This document shows, piece by piece, positions 2,670 through 13,300 of a stretch of 64,000 nt of DNA. A program made the translations under genes and the position numbers. Every line of letters begins with the position of its first letter. Position 1 is the stretch's first letter. Source of the DNA: Solobacterium sp. (GTDB lineage: Bacteria > Bacillota_I > Bacilli_A > Erysipelotrichales > Erysipelotrichaceae); assembly GCA_024693325.1 (NCBI GenBank), contig JAILLA010000029.1:42168-106167 (forward strand). The letters run 5' to 3'. The notes under the pieces were generated by a model that was not told the DNA's origin, did no database searches, and saw nothing but the letters and a program-made list of their open reading frames with translations.

Positions 2670-3395
2670 ATGCAGATACCTGAACTGAAAAAGCCTGATC
2701 ACGGTTATTCCAAGCAGGAACATCCCGGCAATGCGCCGCAATATGATGTGACGCAGTATCCTGCCAGGGAAAACAGCCCGCTGAAAGGAAAGCATCTGAT
2801 ATTTCTCGGCAGTTCCGTAACACTTGGCTATGCTTCACTGAACCAGTCGTTCGCGGATGATCTGGAGCATCTTGACGGTATCGTCATGATCAAGGAAGCG
2901 GTCAACGGAACGACACTGGTCGATATCGACAAGAAGGGCCCGTCTTATATCAAACGTTTAAGAACGATCGACAGATCATTCCCGGCTGACGCACTGATCT
3001 GCCAGCTTTCTACAAACGATGCCACACAAGGTATGCCCTTGGGCACGGTGACAGATGAAAGAGATCCCGAAGCGTTTGATCTGCAGACGATCGCCGGAGC
3101 CATGGAATATATTATTTCCTATGCGCAGAATACTTGGCACTGCCCGGTACTGTTTTACAGCGGGACGAGATTCATCTCTGATCTTTATCAGAACATGACG
3201 GAACTGCTTCCGGTCATGCAGAAAAAGTGGAACATCGGCCTGATCGATCTCTGGAACCACAAAGAGATGTATGAGATCACGGATGAGGCATATAAGCTCT
3301 ATATGTTTGACCCGGTACACCCGACCAGGGCAGGGTATCTGGAATGGTGGACACCAATGTTTGAAAAGGATCTCACGGCTTTCTTCGAACAGTAA
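2670..3395 (+). CDS. SGNH/GDSL hydrolase family protein
   Basis: LIFLGSSVTLGYAS block, CQLSTND block, and C-terminal FDPVHPTRAGYLEWW (catalytic DxxH). Confidence 0.85.
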   Translation: MQIPELKKPDHGYSKQEHPGNAPQYDVTQYPARENSPLKGKHLIFLGSSVTLGYASLNQSFADDLEHLDGIVMIKEAVNGTTLVDIDKKGPSYIKRLRTIDRSFPADALICQLSTNDATQGMPLGTVTDERDPEAFDLQTIAGAMEYIISYAQNTWHCPVLFYSGTRFISDLYQNMTELLPVMQKKWNIGLIDLWNHKEMYEITDEAYKLYMFDPVHPTRAGYLEWWTPMFEKDLTAFFEQ

Positions 3396-3402
3396 AGCCG
3401 GG

Positions 3403-3439
3403 AACTCACCGTGATCACTTCCGGTGGGTTTTGATTTTT
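3403..3439 (+). terminator. Intrinsic terminator after SGNH hydrolase gene
   Basis: AACTCACCG-loop-CGGTGGGTT-TTGATTTTT. Confidence 0.7.
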
Positions 3440-3471
3440 ATAAACTGATGTTTTGCGGAAAGGCGGCAATT

Positions 3472-3918
3472 ATGGAAATTGAACGTAAATTTCTTGTTAA
3501 TGAACTTCCCGATCTGACAGGTGCTGTCATGATCCGGATGGAACAGCGGTATCTTTCGGTAGATCCGGTCCTCAGGATCCGGAAAGCGGATGATAAACAC
3601 ATCTTCACATATAAAAGCGGCATGGGTATGGTCCGGCAGGAAGAAGAATTTGAGATCTCTGCTGAGGACTATGCAAAGCTGTGTGAAAAAACGATCGGTC
3701 ATCCGGTCACGAAAAACAGATATGTCATGGAACTCCCGGACGGACATCACGCCGAGATCGATGTATATCTCGGCAGGCTTGACGGGCTGCTGGTAGTGGA
3801 AACGGAGTTCGGCAGTGAGGAAGAAGCGAATGTGTTCGTACCGCCTGTATGGTTCGGTACGGAAGTGACGGATGACCCTTACTATACGAATGCCATGCTG
3901 GCGTTCAAGGAGGCATGA
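3472..3918 (+). CDS. CYTH domain protein (triphosphate tunnel metalloenzyme family)
   Basis: Internal start MEIERKFLVNELP (ExExK signature), RIRKADDKHIFTYKSG, DVYLGRLDGLLVVETEFGSEEEA; the longer ORF start at 3424 lies inside a terminator. Confidence 0.88.
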   Translation: MEIERKFLVNELPDLTGAVMIRMEQRYLSVDPVLRIRKADDKHIFTYKSGMGMVRQEEEFEISAEDYAKLCEKTIGHPVTKNRYVMELPDGHHAEIDVYLGRLDGLLVVETEFGSEEEANVFVPPVWFGTEVTDDPYYTNAMLAFKEA

Positions 3919-3919
3919 G

Positions 3920-4843
3920 ATGGAGATCGGCTTACTGCTGCTGAAACAGATCTGCGTCATGTTTTTATTGATGCTGACGGGATATGTGTTCTACAAAAGA
4001 GGAATGATCACGGATCAGGGCTCGAAGGAGCTTGGAAAGATCCTGCTGTACCTGGTCATCCCGGTCGTGGTGATCAACAACTTCTGCATTGAGCGGACGG
4101 CGGAAAAAGCTGCGGAGCTCCTGCAGTCAACATTGCTGGCAGGCGCAGCCATGCTGGCGGCGATCGTGATCTCGCACATTGTTTTCGGGAAACGCGACGG
4201 TATTTCCTGCTTCTCATCAGCGTTCTCAAATGCAGGATTCATCGGTATTCCCCTGGTCACAGCGGTCATGGGAAGCCAGTATGTGTTCTATATTTCCGTC
4301 ATGATCGTGTTCGTCAACGCACTGCAGTGGACATACGGCGTATATGTCATCACTTCGGATAAAAATGTCATCTCACCGAAAAAGATCATGACGAATCCGA
4401 TCGTTCTTTCGGTGATCGCCGCATTGATCATCTTCTTCTCCGGAATCGGAAACCATATGCCGGGAGTCGTGACCAGCGTATTCAGTTCGATCGCAGGCCT
4501 GAATACACCGATCGCCATGATGGTCAGCGGTGTATTCCTTACCCAGTCGGATCTTCTGGCAATGTTCAAAAAGAAAAAGACATATATCGTATGTCTGCTC
4601 AGACTGGTCCTGATCCCGCTGGCAACGCTTGCCGTATTCAGGCTCCTGCCGTTCGGCAGTTCTGAAATGAAACTGGCACTGATGATCGCGGCTGCGGCAC
4701 CGGTCGGTTCCAACGTTGCGGTGTTTGCGCAGGCGTATGACAAGAACTATACAGACGCTGTAGAACAGGTCTGTCTGTCAACGATCCTCTGTCTTCTGGT
4801 ACTGCCGCTGGTCATTACGCTGGCATCTGTAGTTCTTGGCTGA
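3920..4843 (+). CDS. AEC family (auxin efflux carrier-like) transporter
   Basis: MEIGLLLLKQICVMFLLMLTGYVFYKRGMITDQGSKELGKILLYLVIP; about 10 TM; AFSNAGFIGIPL motif; overlaps CYTH stop (gcATGAgATGG). Confidence 0.88.
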   Translation: MEIGLLLLKQICVMFLLMLTGYVFYKRGMITDQGSKELGKILLYLVIPVVVINNFCIERTAEKAAELLQSTLLAGAAMLAAIVISHIVFGKRDGISCFSSAFSNAGFIGIPLVTAVMGSQYVFYISVMIVFVNALQWTYGVYVITSDKNVISPKKIMTNPIVLSVIAALIIFFSGIGNHMPGVVTSVFSSIAGLNTPIAMMVSGVFLTQSDLLAMFKKKKTYIVCLLRLVLIPLATLAVFRLLPFGSSEMKLALMIAAAAPVGSNVAVFAQAYDKNYTDAVEQVCLSTILCLLVLPLVITLASVVLG

Positions 4844-6081: not shown

Positions 6082-6102
6082 GACAGCATACAAATGTAAC
6101 CA

Positions 6103-6141
6103 AAAGGATCTGGAATGTTGAATTTCAGATCTTTTTTTTGT
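6103..6141 (+). terminator. Strong intrinsic terminator after rplA
   Basis: AGATCTGAAAT-type inverted repeat followed by TTTTTTTT. Confidence 0.8.
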
Positions 6142-6217
6142 TTTTCCGTGGAGATTCAGCGTGAATACCGAATGTTATTTCAGAAGGCCGTTGCGGCCGG
6201 GTGAAACGGAGGAAACT

Positions 6218-9200
6218 ATGAATCGCACAGCATGGAAAAAACGAAATGCACTGTTATTAGCGGCGATGACCTGTCTGAGGGCATTGCCTGCAGCTGCTGA
6301 AGAACCGGATCCTGCAGCAGGACAGCAGACTGAACTGACAGGAACAGAACAGCGGGTGATCGAAGCGGTCGCAGTACCTGATCCTTCAGAGATCATGGCT
6401 GAAGCAGGAACAGCGGAAGAAGACCTGGATCTTCCGTTTACATTATCGGTTCTGTTTGCCGGAAGCGAAACAACAGAGGAACAGGAAGTCGTCTGGCAGT
6501 GCAGTACATATGATGCGGACATTGAAGGCAGCTATGTTTTTCAATCCGTATTTACTGACACATCTCTGGTCTGGGACGATATGCCGCTAATGACTGTTAC
6601 TGTGGAAAAATACCTGACCATCACACAGTATCTGGAACAGCTGCCGGAAAGCAGCTCCGTATTTCAGATGAGCGATGAGGAAAAAGGGGAAGTACGGACA
6701 CTGCTGCAGCAGATCGGATCTCTGGAAAATGAAATGACTGATGAAGACAGGACGGATTGGCAGAGCAGGAATCCCGTGAAATATGCGCTTTATCAGGAAT
6801 TGTGCACGATCCTTTTGGACCAGTCAGGAGGAGAACACGCATATCTGGACGATGATCTGATCTATGTTGAAACATTGAATGTTTCAGAAATGAAAGACGG
6901 GATCGGACCGTTTGACGAAGAAGATACAGCGGGAAGGGATACATCGGATTCAAACCACAGGATCAGGACGTTTGATACGCTGACATACACCCTGTTTTAC
7001 AGAACAAGATCCAACGGTATTTACGACAGTGTTGGCAGCGGCTATATGTTCTACGAATTTATTCTTCCATGTACTGAAAAGGAAGCGGTTTTTGATACGG
7101 AATCCATGGGCTGGGCAGGAAACCGGTGCACTGATCTGAATGATCTGACTCCCGGAACGACCGGATGGACGCTCAGTACGGATGGAGAAGGGAATCAGGT
7201 GCTGCTAGTAAAACGGTTTATGGAACCAAACGAGACTGCGGAAAACGCATTCCCGGGCAGCGGGACGGTCAGTGCGGTAGTCCATATACTCGGGGCATCC
7301 AACGGTACGGTCATACAGCCTGTATTCCGTGCGTGGATGGACCATAACGACATCGGACAGGCGGCGGAATGCCTTTCGGAACCGGTAGAGATCACATGTG
7401 AACTCAGGATGAATGCCGCACTGGCAAAACATACGCATACGCAGGGACTTGATGTATTCGACTTTTCCACAGGAAACGATCTTGCGCTGAACAAGGATGC
7501 CGGACAGGTCAAAGGCAGGATCTACGGTTATTCTGTCAACCTCCAGCTCTACAGCAAAGGCAGTGCCGGTACAGGCGCAGACCTGAAAGGATGCGCATTG
7601 CCCGACGGACCGATCAGTGTCAGCGTTGATATGCAGGCTGTTTACAGAAGATCCTCCGCCTCCTCATCTCCCATATCGATGAATGACGACGGGTTTGTGC
7701 CGCTGATCTGGAGCTATGAAGGCAACAAGCGTCCGTATTCGGATCTGCAGGCTGATGAAAGAGACGTCAAAAGTTATGGCCTGACATACGCAACACTGGC
7801 ACCCCTGAACAGGAAGAACGAACGTCCGGATATCATGCCTGCAGACGGGTCCAACGGATGCTGGAACGGAGGAGACTGGCATGCGGAACAGGAGGGAAGT
7901 ACAGTCACATTCACGATCTATCCGAAAAGTGAAGAACATCCCAACGGCTACGAAGTGAATCCGCAGTGGTTCCCGAACGGCAACAGCGGTGCCGCACCGA
8001 AAAACCAGAACATTTACTGGAAGCCTTCAGACGGAGTGTTTACAGCAAGGATCGGATGTATATCCGCGGCAGAGGTATACTTTATCGTTCCTTTTGAGCA
8101 GAACGGAACAGGGCTCAGCGAGTGGTATGAAGACACAGGAACCGTCGAACTGAGCGCGGCAGATGCACAGCTGAAGGTATCGGATGTACTGCTTGAACAG
8201 GGCAGCACTTCCGATGATGTGCTGACATGGTCGGTTTTTATTGCCGGCGGAGGCGTGTATACACCGAATATCCATTACGCTTCAGCAGACGGATACGGTG
8301 ATATCAACCATAACGAAGAACCGGATTCCTTTCTGCATACCGGCGAGGATGCTGTGGCGGTCGGACAGCCGTTCGGGATCACCTGGGGACTATGGTGTGA
8401 TCCCAGAGGCGACAGCGACAATGTCGTATATGCAGCGAACAGCCTGATGAAGTTTGATGATGAAGGCATCCTCCTGCAGAACAGTGACGGGACTCCGGCC
8501 GGTCCGTCTGTCTATAACGACGGCTATTATGCATCCGGTACGTATTCATGGATGTATGCTGCGAAACCGGACGGTACGGGATGGTACGATGACGCTGAGA
8601 TGAACGATGCTGTTGAGTCGGACCTGATCTATTTCTCCGATCTGCAGCAGCTGCAGGACCAGGGATACACCTGCGTGGGGATCCTGACGCAGTACCGCAA
8701 GGATCTGTCGGAAAAGGAATTCACCAAAAAGGCAGCCTTGTCATATATACCGTGTATGAGCGGAGAAGAAAGTCAGACAGCAGGCAATGTATACCAGATC
8801 AGGATCAGTACAACATGGTGGCTGAAGGACAAGGTCAGTGCTGCCGGAGGCATGATCCCGCTGCGTCCGGAAGGAACCGATAACCGGACATTTGTACTGC
8901 CGCAGGGGGACAAGCAGGATGTTAAGGAAAACTATGTCAAAGCAGTGTGGGAAAGCAGCGCATATGTATCCGGACATACCGGGGATAACCATGACGGAGA
9001 CTCTGTATATGTCACTCCGTTCAGAAGTGAGATCGAGATCACTGCCGCGCAGACACAGTCCGGTTCGGCAGAACCGGCAAGGATCTACAGCCTCGACAGC
9101 GGACAGCGCTATGTGGAATACCGGATCAGACCGTCATTGACAACATATACGCAGACCGGGGAAGGCACACCGGTCACGGTGACCGTCAGGACTGTTCTGC

Positions 9201-12200
9201 CTGCGCAGCTGATGTATAACAGTGATTTCGGATCCTGGTATGCGTCAGGTTCCCAATATGTACAGGCAGGCATCGGCAAACAGGGAAGCTGTTCAGGCGT
9301 ACCTCTGGAGCCTGTACTGACAGCAGGAGAAAACGGGCAGACGATCCTGACATGGACGCTGGAGAACATCATTCCTTCTCAGGATATGAACAACATTTAC
9401 TTCGGCACGGTCATCGACGAAGAGAACGGATATATCGAAGTGGCCGATCAGCAGCAGATCATTGTCACTGCTTCCATCAGCGCAGACGGAGATCACCGTC
9501 CGCTGACTCCGGCAAACGACAACATCAGTGAAGCGGGGATCCGCATATCCAAACAGCTGGCGATGGCTGTGTCAAAAAGAGCCGACCGGAGATTCATCGA
9601 TCCGCAGGAAAGCGCAGGATGGACAGTTACGGCAGGAAACAACGGCTCTTCCAATCTGACCGACTCCGTCGTTCTTGATGTATTTGCCTCAGACAGCACA
9701 TACGCGGGGGATCTGTATCTGGATGAATTCAGGATCCTGAAGTATTCCGCAGACGGCACAAAAGTCACAGCCGATAATATCGGTGACTGGGAGATATGGT
9801 ATACCTATCAGGAAGTTGATGAAGCATCCGCTGAAACCATGACAGCAGGGCAGATCAGAAATTCTTCCGCATGGGTCAGGGGTACCGTTCAGTCAGACGG
9901 AGAAGACCGTATCCTTGTAACGGGACCGGAAGAACGGAAGAATATCAAAGCGGCAGCAGTGATCGGCACGCTTTACAGGCAGCAGACCTGCAGACTCCAT
10001 ATCAGCGTCACAATGCCGGGATGTCAGGGCGGACAAAAGATCAGGAATACGGTCTACAGGGGTTCCGACACCGGGGAATCGACAGTTTACATCGTATCGC
10101 GCAGTATTGAAGGCATCATCTGGAAAGACGGTGACCTGGACGGTCAGCGCAGCGTACAGGAACAGCCGATGCATGATATGACGATCACATTGCAGAAACA
10201 GGACACCGCGGGAAACTACGAAACATATGAATCAAACGGTTTGCCTGCTGTCGTTCACTCCTCGGAAAGCATGGATGTGCATACAGGGGTGGTGTCCGCA
10301 TACACAGACGGAAGATACCGGTTTGCGTCTCTTCCTGAGGGAACGTACAGGATCCTGATCGAAACAGCCGGTCTTCAGGAATACCTGCTTTCTCCGCTGC
10401 ATATCGGAAGCCCTGATACCGATTCGGACGGCATCGGTATTTATGAGGAAGGAAGACTGTCAGGGATCGGAATATCCGACATCACCTTGCCGGAAGCTTC
10501 ATCGATCGGTTCCTACCGTTATGTTTCGGAAAACAATGACGCAGGCATTGCGCCGGCCAGACAGCCGCTGCTGATCCGGAAAACCTGGATCAGGGAAACA
10601 CAGACAGCACTTCCTGAAGAGATCATGATCGGACTGTACGCGGACGGTCAGCTGCTGGAAACATATACGCTTACCCAGGCAGATGCCGTGTCAGGAAGAG
10701 ATATCTGGCAGATCACGACTGAAGAACTGCCGGTCTATCGTCAGGATGGTTCGGACCGGATACAGTATACCGTCAGTGAATCGGCGGTTTCAGGATGCAG
10801 TAAGGATATGCTGGGCGGTAAAACGGTATTTGTGCAGATTGGCGAAGCAGTATCCGAGGCAGGACTCTGGGCAGCGGAAAGCAGACTGTCAGGTGATTGT
10901 CTTGAGGTGGTCAACACCTGGGAGCCGGCAGAAGAAGAACTGACGGGCACTTTTGAAATGACACTGAGGAAATGCAGTGCAGAACACAGCCTGATCAATG
11001 AACCGGCTGTATTTGAACTGTTCAGTTCCGGTATTTCCATCGGGCAGTACACAACAGAAGCCGGAAGCGTCATGATCAGTTCCCTGGAAGCGGGCAGTTA
11101 TGTTCTGAGGGAGGTCACTGCACCGGCAGGATATGTGAGATCCGACGCGGATATTTCCTTCGAGATCCTGCAGGACGGAACGCTGTATCTGAGGGATGAA
11201 CTTACGGAAAACAGGATCATCCGCTTCTTCAGAAAACTGTTCCGTCTGGAAACGCAGGAGCACGCACATGCCGAATGGGATGCAAATGAACAGACGATGA
11301 CGGTCATCAATGAACGGATCAAAGGAAGTCTGAAGATCACAAAACATACAGAAGATACTGAAGGAGAACCCCTGCAGACACAACAGAGTTACCGGTTTGC
11401 CCTCCATACGGCAGACGGAGACCTGATCCGGACATTCGAGGTCAGAAACAATGAAAGCACACTCCTGAATGACATTCCCTACGGGAATTATGTCCTGACC
11501 GAGCTGAACGGTACGGAGGACAGTCTGTCGCCGGCATATATCTTCAGGAGGTTCACGGTCACCGGAGACCCTGCTGTAAGGATCAACGGGGAAACGGTTG
11601 AACTGACTGTCACAAATATCTATGAGCGCAGGAAAACAGACCTGCCGGTGGAAAAGATATGGGACGGAGCGGAGCTGGCAGAAGCCGAATTTGTTTTGTC
11701 TGCAGACGGAGAAGACATCCGGCATCTGTCAGTCAGTGCGGAATCATCCTGGAAAGGCGTATTTGCCGGCCTGAATGAATATGATGAAACAGGCAGGCAG
11801 ATCGTTTATGAGGTCCGTGAGAACGTGCCGCTGGGTTATGCGGTGACTGCGGACGCTGCCGGACATGTATTCACGAACCATCAGATCAGCCTCGCTGTAC
11901 TGAAGACGGATGAAAAGGGAAATCCTTTGCCCGGAGCAGAGCTCTGTCTGTGGGATGAACATGGCAATGAGGTTTACAGATGGACTTCGTCCGAAGAACG
12001 TGAAGAACTGGGGCCGAAACTGAAGGCGTCACAAAACTATTCGATCACGGAGATTAAAATACCGGACGGATATGCTTCTCATAACACAGCTCTTGAGTTC
12101 AGCGTGCTTCAGGACGGTACAGTGATCACAGACGCAGATATGGAAGGTCATGTGCTGAAGATCGAAAATGTACCGCTTGATATCCGCGTTGAAAAACTGG

Positions 12201-12565
12201 ACTCCTTTACAAAGAAACCGCTGTCCGGTGCTGTCCTGAAGATCATCGATGAGACCGGTAAGGTGATAGACCGCTGGACAAGCACGGAAGAAGCACACAG
12301 ACTGCAGTCGGTCAGTGCAGGAAAGACATACACTCTCATAGAAGAAAAAGCTCCCGAACAGTATGAGATCAGTGCATCCATCACATTTACTGCAGCGTCT
12401 TCCGATCAGACGCAGGTCATCACGATGTATGACAGGAAGAGATCCGAATTCCTGACAGCGCTTCCTAAAACGGGAGGAGACGGTTATCCGCTCTTCTGGG
12501 CAGGCGTATTCCTGGTCAGCGGAGCCCTGTTCACATTGTCGGCAAAACTGCTGCTCAAAAGATAA
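6218..12565 (+). CDS. Very large LPXTG cell-wall-anchored surface protein with SdrD/Cna_B/SpaA-type repeats
   Basis: N-terminal signal peptide (MNRTAWKKRNALLLAAMTCLRALPAAAEE); SdrD-B-like segment IEGIIWKDGDLDGQRSVQEQPMHDMTITLQK; SpaA-like ...SSLEAGSYVLREVTAPAGYV...; C-terminal LPKTGGDGYPLFWAGVFLVSGALFTLSAKLLLKR sorting signal; RBS ggagg before ATG 6218. Confidence 0.93.
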   Translation: MNRTAWKKRNALLLAAMTCLRALPAAAEEPDPAAGQQTELTGTEQRVIEAVAVPDPSEIMAEAGTAEEDLDLPFTLSVLFAGSETTEEQEVVWQCSTYDADIEGSYVFQSVFTDTSLVWDDMPLMTVTVEKYLTITQYLEQLPESSSVFQMSDEEKGEVRTLLQQIGSLENEMTDEDRTDWQSRNPVKYALYQELCTILLDQSGGEHAYLDDDLIYVETLNVSEMKDGIGPFDEEDTAGRDTSDSNHRIRTFDTLTYTLFYRTRSNGIYDSVGSGYMFYEFILPCTEKEAVFDTESMGWAGNRCTDLNDLTPGTTGWTLSTDGEGNQVLLVKRFMEPNETAENAFPGSGTVSAVVHILGASNGTVIQPVFRAWMDHNDIGQAAECLSEPVEITCELRMNAALAKHTHTQGLDVFDFSTGNDLALNKDAGQVKGRIYGYSVNLQLYSKGSAGTGADLKGCALPDGPISVSVDMQAVYRRSSASSSPISMNDDGFVPLIWSYEGNKRPYSDLQADERDVKSYGLTYATLAPLNRKNERPDIMPADGSNGCWNGGDWHAEQEGSTVTFTIYPKSEEHPNGYEVNPQWFPNGNSGAAPKNQNIYWKPSDGVFTARIGCISAAEVYFIVPFEQNGTGLSEWYEDTGTVELSAADAQLKVSDVLLEQGSTSDDVLTWSVFIAGGGVYTPNIHYASADGYGDINHNEEPDSFLHTGEDAVAVGQPFGITWGLWCDPRGDSDNVVYAANSLMKFDDEGILLQNSDGTPAGPSVYNDGYYASGTYSWMYAAKPDGTGWYDDAEMNDAVESDLIYFSDLQQLQDQGYTCVGILTQYRKDLSEKEFTKKAALSYIPCMSGEESQTAGNVYQIRISTTWWLKDKVSAAGGMIPLRPEGTDNRTFVLPQGDKQDVKENYVKAVWESSAYVSGHTGDNHDGDSVYVTPFRSEIEITAAQTQSGSAEPARIYSLDSGQRYVEYRIRPSLTTYTQTGEGTPVTVTVRTVLPAQLMYNSDFGSWYASGSQYVQAGIGKQGSCSGVPLEPVLTAGENGQTILTWTLENIIPSQDMNNIYFGTVIDEENGYIEVADQQQIIVTASISADGDHRPLTPANDNISEAGIRISKQLAMAVSKRADRRFIDPQESAGWTVTAGNNGSSNLTDSVVLDVFASDSTYAGDLYLDEFRILKYSADGTKVTADNIGDWEIWYTYQEVDEASAETMTAGQIRNSSAWVRGTVQSDGEDRILVTGPEERKNIKAAAVIGTLYRQQTCRLHISVTMPGCQGGQKIRNTVYRGSDTGESTVYIVSRSIEGIIWKDGDLDGQRSVQEQPMHDMTITLQKQDTAGNYETYESNGLPAVVHSSESMDVHTGVVSAYTDGRYRFASLPEGTYRILIETAGLQEYLLSPLHIGSPDTDSDGIGIYEEGRLSGIGISDITLPEASSIGSYRYVSENNDAGIAPARQPLLIRKTWIRETQTALPEEIMIGLYADGQLLETYTLTQADAVSGRDIWQITTEELPVYRQDGSDRIQYTVSESAVSGCSKDMLGGKTVFVQIGEAVSEAGLWAAESRLSGDCLEVVNTWEPAEEELTGTFEMTLRKCSAEHSLINEPAVFELFSSGISIGQYTTEAGSVMISSLEAGSYVLREVTAPAGYVRSDADISFEILQDGTLYLRDELTENRIIRFFRKLFRLETQEHAHAEWDANEQTMTVINERIKGSLKITKHTEDTEGEPLQTQQSYRFALHTADGDLIRTFEVRNNESTLLNDIPYGNYVLTELNGTEDSLSPAYIFRRFTVTGDPAVRINGETVELTVTNIYERRKTDLPVEKIWDGAELAEAEFVLSADGEDIRHLSVSAESSWKGVFAGLNEYDETGRQIVYEVRENVPLGYAVTADAAGHVFTNHQISLAVLKTDEKGNPLPGAELCLWDEHGNEVYRWTSSEEREELGPKLKASQNYSITEIKIPDGYASHNTALEFSVLQDGTVITDADMEGHVLKIENVPLDIRVEKLDSFTKKPLSGAVLKIIDETGKVIDRWTSTEEAHRLQSVSAGKTYTLIEEKAPEQYEISASITFTAASSDQTQVITMYDRKRSEFLTALPKTGGDGYPLFWAGVFLVSGALFTLSAKLLLKR

Positions 12566-12574
12566 AACTGAAGG

Positions 12575-12603
12575 TTGACAAACACGTTAAACGCTCGTAT
12601 TAT
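12575..12603 (+). promoter_or_regulatory. Promoter for rplJ-rplL
   Basis: TTGACA - 17 nt - TATTAT immediately after the adhesin stop codon. Confidence 0.85.
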
Positions 12604-12724
12604 TTTAGCGTTATCAAATACCAGAGACAGTAACGGCGTAAGCTTAATCAGGTTACCGAGGTAGAGAAAGTCAATCTGTTAGTTGAACTTTTATGCCCTT
12701 GCTGTCTGTCAGCGAGGGCTTTAT
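12604..12724 (+). promoter_or_regulatory. L10-type ribosomal protein leader with attenuator hairpin
   Basis: About 160-nt 5' leader upstream of rplJ with CAGGTTACCGAGG-type element and terminal hairpin CCCTTGCTG-TCTGT-CAGCGAGGG-CTTT. Confidence 0.75.
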
Positions 12725-12766
12725 ATATTCAGGTACGCGATAACAAGGAAAGGTTTAGGTGAAGGA

Positions 12767-13300
12767 ATGAATCAGGCGGTATTAGAATCTAAGAAAAATG
12801 TCGTCACCGAGATTGCAGACAAGATGAAAAATTCCGGTTCTGCAGTTGTCGCTGAGTACCGTGGACTGAGCGTTGCTGAGGTCACTGAACTCCGCCGTGC
12901 ACTGATGGCCGAGCATGTTGAGATGAAAGTCTATAAGAACACGCTGGCTGCCAGAGCAGCAGATGCGGCTGGTTACGGAGACCTGAAAAACGTTCTGACA
13001 GGACCCAACGCGATCGCATTCGGCGAAGACGAAACCGCAGCGGCTCGTGTTATGGCACAGTTCGCGAAAAAGCATAAGGCACTGATTCTCAAGGGCGGAA
13101 TTGTTGAAGGCCGTGTTATCGGATCTGAAACAGTTGCAGAGCTGTCCCAGCTCCCGAACAGAGAAGGAATGCTGTCAATGCTGTTATCTGTATTACAGGC
13201 ACCTGTTTCCGGCTTTGCAAGAGCTATCAATGCTGTTGCTGAAGCCAGAGGCGGTAGCGCAGAAGCACCAAAAGAAGAAGCTGCAGAGGCAGCTGCCTAA
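12767..13300 (+). CDS. rplJ: 50S ribosomal protein L10
   Basis: MNQAVLESKKNVVTEIADKMKNSGSAVVAEYRGLSVAEVTELRRALMAEHVEMKVYKNTLAARA; start corrected from the longer ORF at 12683, which lies in the leader. Confidence 0.95.
   Translation: MNQAVLESKKNVVTEIADKMKNSGSAVVAEYRGLSVAEVTELRRALMAEHVEMKVYKNTLAARAADAAGYGDLKNVLTGPNAIAFGEDETAAARVMAQFAKKHKALILKGGIVEGRVIGSETVAELSQLPNREGMLSMLLSVLQAPVSGFARAINAVAEARGGSAEAPKEEAAEAAA

Follow-up and report, generated by a model that had tools for sequence, protein, structure and literature searches.

When the rplKAJL-rpoBC block is split in proteobacteria, the split mostly falls between rplKA and rplJL (PMC4481853), and SpaA and Cna_B have been named as stalk domains of fibrillar adhesins (PMC8286594). 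The window, by which we mean the whole 64,000-nucleotide stretch of Solobacterium sp. DNA that was analysed, has a split in that position, occupied by a protein resembling those adhesins. On the plus strand it reads, unbroken, rplK (L11, 4979..5401), rplA (L1, 5404..6081), a 136-bp spacer, a gene for a 2,115-aa LPXTG (LPKTG) fibrillar-adhesin-like surface protein (6218..12565, from the ATG at 6218 to a stop ending at 12565), rplJ (L10, 12767..13300, ATG at 12767) and rplL (L7/L12, 13322..13693), followed by rpoBC. That such a gene lies between rplA and rplJ was the core of the original prediction, and the coordinates, the Pfam domains and the C-terminus confirm it. The gene is of a known kind, adding one more LPXTG protein of the fibrillar-adhesin-like type, and the ribosomal junction that holds it has been opened recurrently. 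The published splits are proteobacterial, whereas here the split is the rule in one Erysipelotrichaceae genus, is filled by varied cargo, and is associated with a terminator after rplA. The nusG-rplK junction is likewise open in the window (2670-4840), with a gene resembling GDSL lipases at 2670-3395 and one for an auxin-efflux-type transporter at 3872-4843, and it too is variable among relatives.

The source genome is 3.6 Mb spread over 128 contigs, a degree of fragmentation that invites suspicion of a metagenome assembly or binning artefact, and a false join at 6.1 or 12.5 kb had been named in advance as a possible refutation. Such a join is excluded, because the same junctions recur in independent assemblies from different hosts. 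The nearest named relatives, Solobacterium sp. RGIG615 from dairy cattle duodenum and Solobacterium sp. RGIG2523 from goat jejunum, have the identical unbroken gene order with adhesins that are 96% and 89% identical, respectively, and a fourth species (G042) has a ~55% homologue after rplA with one additional ORF before rplJ. We regard an artefact as having practically no chance of being the explanation.

The suggested comparison of rplA-rplJ synteny across related genomes was carried out on genus genomes at least 90% complete, counting those 21 in which rplA and rplJ share a contig. Of these, 20 have an open junction, with gaps of 1.1-12.2 kb and unrelated cargo, the sole compact genome being G016 with a gap of 241 bp. 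In other genus genomes the two genes fall on different contigs, in some cases with tens of kb or more between them. The other genera of the family are by contrast mostly compact, with 35 compact junctions (gaps 149-288 bp) versus 11 open ones (1.6-8.2 kb), and one single-contig genome has the two genes far apart. Among named genera, Holdemania, Longicatena, Amedibacillus and Merdibacter are compact, and Lactimicrobium and Bulleidia are open. Hence the adhesin gene does not stand as the singular insertion it was taken for; an open junction is the rule within the genus and recurs within the family. Ligilactobacillus species (L065, L067, L071) also have the junction open with various genes while their congeners are compact.

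The commonest cargo is an M24 peptidase, found at 10 loci, Lactimicrobium included; 6 loci also have an oppositely oriented alpha/beta hydrolase gene. The genome of the window has its own M24 peptidase homologue on another contig, and it is plausible that the peptidase was a shared ancestral cargo later lost or moved. Bulleidia extructa has an IS200 transposase in the gap, and a serpin, a patatin, an M3 peptidase, an aldolase and many more occur among other relatives. An LPXTG giant is the cargo only in the adhesin clade of four species; the full-length adhesin is found in only four among 60 genus genomes plus the source genome, and the carriers group together. The adhesin is thus one of many passengers at a site that has been opened recurrently and was insulated already, and the wider junction pattern is of more interest than the single insertion. 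What appeared to be an odd lone insertion becomes a comparative case of a highly conserved ribosomal operon coming apart.

Between rplA and the adhesin gene there is an intrinsic-terminator-like hairpin (6102..6136, plus strand) that closes the rplKA unit, having 15 pairs, a U-run tail and a stability of about -15.6 kcal/mol. We scored a terminator as present if a terminator-like hairpin lay no more than 30 nt from the rplA stop, with thresholds of our own choosing, and by this measure it is present in 34 of 36 open taxa versus 7 of 41 compact taxa, where dinucleotide shuffles lead one to expect 1.0 and 0.2 taxa. Of the two open taxa that lack it by this measure, L149 has a weak hairpin with a U run and L151 has a tRNA gene directly following rplA. 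The compact taxa with a terminator are three Ligilactobacillus, G112, G086, L051 and G016, all of which lie inside or beside clades with open junctions. The association of terminator and open junction is solid. The terminator was originally described as one side of a frame put around the insertion; it is there, but compact relatives such as G016 have it too, so it is not a frame in that sense.

The question then is which came first, and a two-trait model was fitted on a quick tree made from two short proteins. Making opening dependent on the terminator gives lnL -47.3, the reverse dependence gives -49.9, and independence gives -59.7, so that the terminator-first model beats independence by 12 log units and the reverse is 2.6 units worse than terminator-first. 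If instead cargo had been inserted first, and the terminator selected later as protection for ribosomal expression, the good fit of the reverse dependence relative to independence would be accounted for. What that order accounts for less well is the presence of compact terminator-bearing taxa in several lineages near open ones, together with the slightly better fit of the opposite order, and we think cargo-first rather doubtful. G016 is a case that pulls the other way, being nested among open genomes; it may represent cargo loss, and it counts against the terminator-first explanation. On balance, terminator first and cargo after is weakly favoured, as a lean only.

The reading that we prefer, at a probability of roughly 0.7, is that an intrinsic terminator arose after rplA and would have turned the rplKAJL-rpoBC block into two transcription units, with rplJL still under its own promoter and L10 leader. 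Foreign genes would then have been tolerated between terminator and promoter, with cargo differing by lineage, and in the lineage ancestral to four Solobacterium-like species of the ruminant gut that cargo would have been the giant sortase-anchored fibrillar-adhesin-like protein, probably inherited vertically since that ancestor. We infer the order of these events, while gene order, conservation of the promoter and leader, the terminator association, the variety of cargo, the restriction of the adhesin to one clade, its domains and sorting signal, and the presence of sortase genes in the genome are direct observations. Because there are many independent openings, the proposed sequence, in which promoter and leader pre-exist, the terminator appears, and cargo follows, is testable. 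A broader version, to which we would give a little less than even odds, is that the most conserved ribosomal operon has been unlocked for insertion by gain of a terminator after rplA, on several occasions in Erysipelotrichaceae and Ligilactobacillus, and that unrelated cargo has then landed recurrently in each gap.

Downstream of the adhesin stop, the TTGACA-17-TATTAT promoter of rplJ (12575..12603, plus strand) is the top promoter match in the region, and it leads into an L10 leader RNA (12603..12734, plus strand) that was overlooked in the earlier sequence-only reading. The RF00557 covariance model scores this leader at 67.3 bits against a gathering cut-off of 44, and in its score and its position directly upstream of rplJ it is like other members of RF00557, with no difference seen. 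At nearly every locus examined, whether compact or open, TTGACA, 16-18 nt and a -10-like hexamer lie ~170-200 nt upstream of rplJ, and the L10 leader follows with its conserved GTTATCAA...ACC start. Since both elements are present whether or not the junction is open, the promoter is ancestral and family-wide. The original prediction was correct in placing a promoter here and mistaken in calling it new, and creation of the promoter along with the insertion is ruled out by the compact relatives that have it.

A scan of the window sequence for terminator-like sites finds none between the adhesin stop and the rplJ promoter, and the first candidate is the terminator-like hairpin of the L10 leader itself (12695-12719). 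Therefore the insulation of the ribosomal genes, which had been proposed without qualification, is one-sided. The terminator and promoter do keep the units separate, but transcription of the adhesin gene may continue into the rplJ leader and its L10 hairpin.

The adhesin gene itself has a 79-nt leader with a GGAGG ribosome-binding site (6139..6217, plus strand). An in-frame GTG at 6161 would add 19 residues to the adhesin, but its ribosome-binding site is poorer than that of the ATG at 6218. It was correctly observed that the 136-bp spacer has no clear promoter, and no 9/12 sigma-70 match is found in 6082-6217. This, with the short distance and the shared strand, is what could be said for the idea that the adhesin is transcribed by read-through from the strong rplKA operon, with expression tracking growth rate. 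A hairpin with a long U run at -15.6 kcal/mol is however in the way, and the codon adaptation of the adhesin is a mid-range 0.51 versus 0.77 for rplA, which does not suggest expression at a ribosomal level. Codirectional cargo is also not needed at this site, as several relatives have minus-strand genes adjoining rplA. We consider read-through unlikely and find it more reasonable that a weak promoter within the 79-nt leader would drive the adhesin gene. The leader is 94.9% identical to that of G005 where four-fold sites are 63.7% identical, and 89.9% identical to that of G036 where four-fold sites are 83.9%, so strong purifying selection on it is equivocal; the block at 6171-6189 is partly retained in G042. 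Two further candidates were rejected: the leader block is not a genome-wide regulatory motif, as it is found only at the adhesin site in the source genome, G036 and G005, and an invertible promoter upstream is not indicated, as the sole inverted repeat is a short palindrome within rplA.

The adhesin begins with a basic start, a hydrophobic stretch and AAAEE, as judged by eye. An HMM search bears out the domain types that had been read from the repeats, with Pfam matching SpaA in 4 stretches, Cna_B in 2, SdrD_B in 1 (residues 1298-1405; 10109..10432, plus strand) and DUF11 at a borderline score. The sorting signal also holds, with LPKTG at residues 2082-2086 (12461..12475, plus strand), then a hydrophobic segment and KR; the G042 homologue has LPNTG. 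The SpaA/Cna_B stalk (residues ~1450-2072; 10565..12433, plus strand) has stalk matches in PDB to Cna-B, SpyCatcher and pilin domains. Six candidate Lys/Glu/Asn-or-Asp triads, assigned by eye from the alignment, are invariant in the four close homologues down to 55% identity (K1455/E1521/N1566, K1585/E1632/N1698, K1709/E1762/N1800, K1813/E1865/N1887, K1896/E1945/N1984 and K1993/E2042/D2072), pointing to putative isopeptide bonds in the stalk.

The head region (residues 201-1110; 6818..9547, plus strand) is conserved and uncharacterised. Its first domain has no Pfam match, the region as a whole has no credible match among PDB sequences, and no adhesive Pfam family is found in either the whole protein or the first head domain. 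AlphaFold on the 910-aa head with four sequences gives an unusable pLDDT of 31, and the sole usable head model is that of residues 203-396 from 14 sequences, a beta-rich fold with pLDDT near 90. Its matches in PDB are weak, with TM scores of 0.3-0.4, the best E-value going to a Streptococcus mutans adhesin domain, and for that reason no function is read from the model. The protein nevertheless looks like a fibrillar adhesin, with a ~900-aa head on an isopeptide-domain stalk, and this architecture is what suggests that the head would be adhesive. Being large, with an N-terminal head, a SpaA and Cna_B stalk and a C-terminal wall anchor, it shares the features of the fibrillar adhesins (PMC8286594), and it is unlike them in having no known adhesive Pfam domain and a head that is uncharacterised.

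Four other genera of the family have giant surface proteins with this head (residues ~206-1110) at lower identity, and in at least one case, G119, the homologous region lies away from rplA. The stalks vary among these homologues: the adhesin of the window has SpaA/Cna_B domains, G135 and G119 have DUF11 arrays, and G197 has FctA plus Cna_B. Together they define a gut-Erysipelotrichaceae family of giant surface proteins whose members share the uncharacterised head and have exchangeable stalks. In G135, a genome from another genus, several giant surface proteins with this head region are encoded close together (L137, L138).

The same SpaA/Cna_B domains are compatible with a pilin whose subunits a class C sortase would polymerise, as opposed to a monomeric fibrillar adhesin. 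Two sortase genes (PF04203) are found elsewhere in the source genome, by eye class C-like and class B-like, neither being class A-like. The SpaH/EbpB pilin model NF033902 weakly matches the C-terminal part of the adhesin, which like those LPXTG major pilins has a SpaA-like C-terminal domain and a sorting signal, but the score is 49.2 bits against a cut-off of 95. Moreover, 2,115 aa is far above the size of a shaft pilin, and no sortase or other pilin gene is adjacent, so we hold a pilin to be quite improbable. The class C-like sortase is encoded beside genes for a signal peptidase and a pilin-like protein elsewhere in the source genome (L115, C16), in what is likely a pilus locus.
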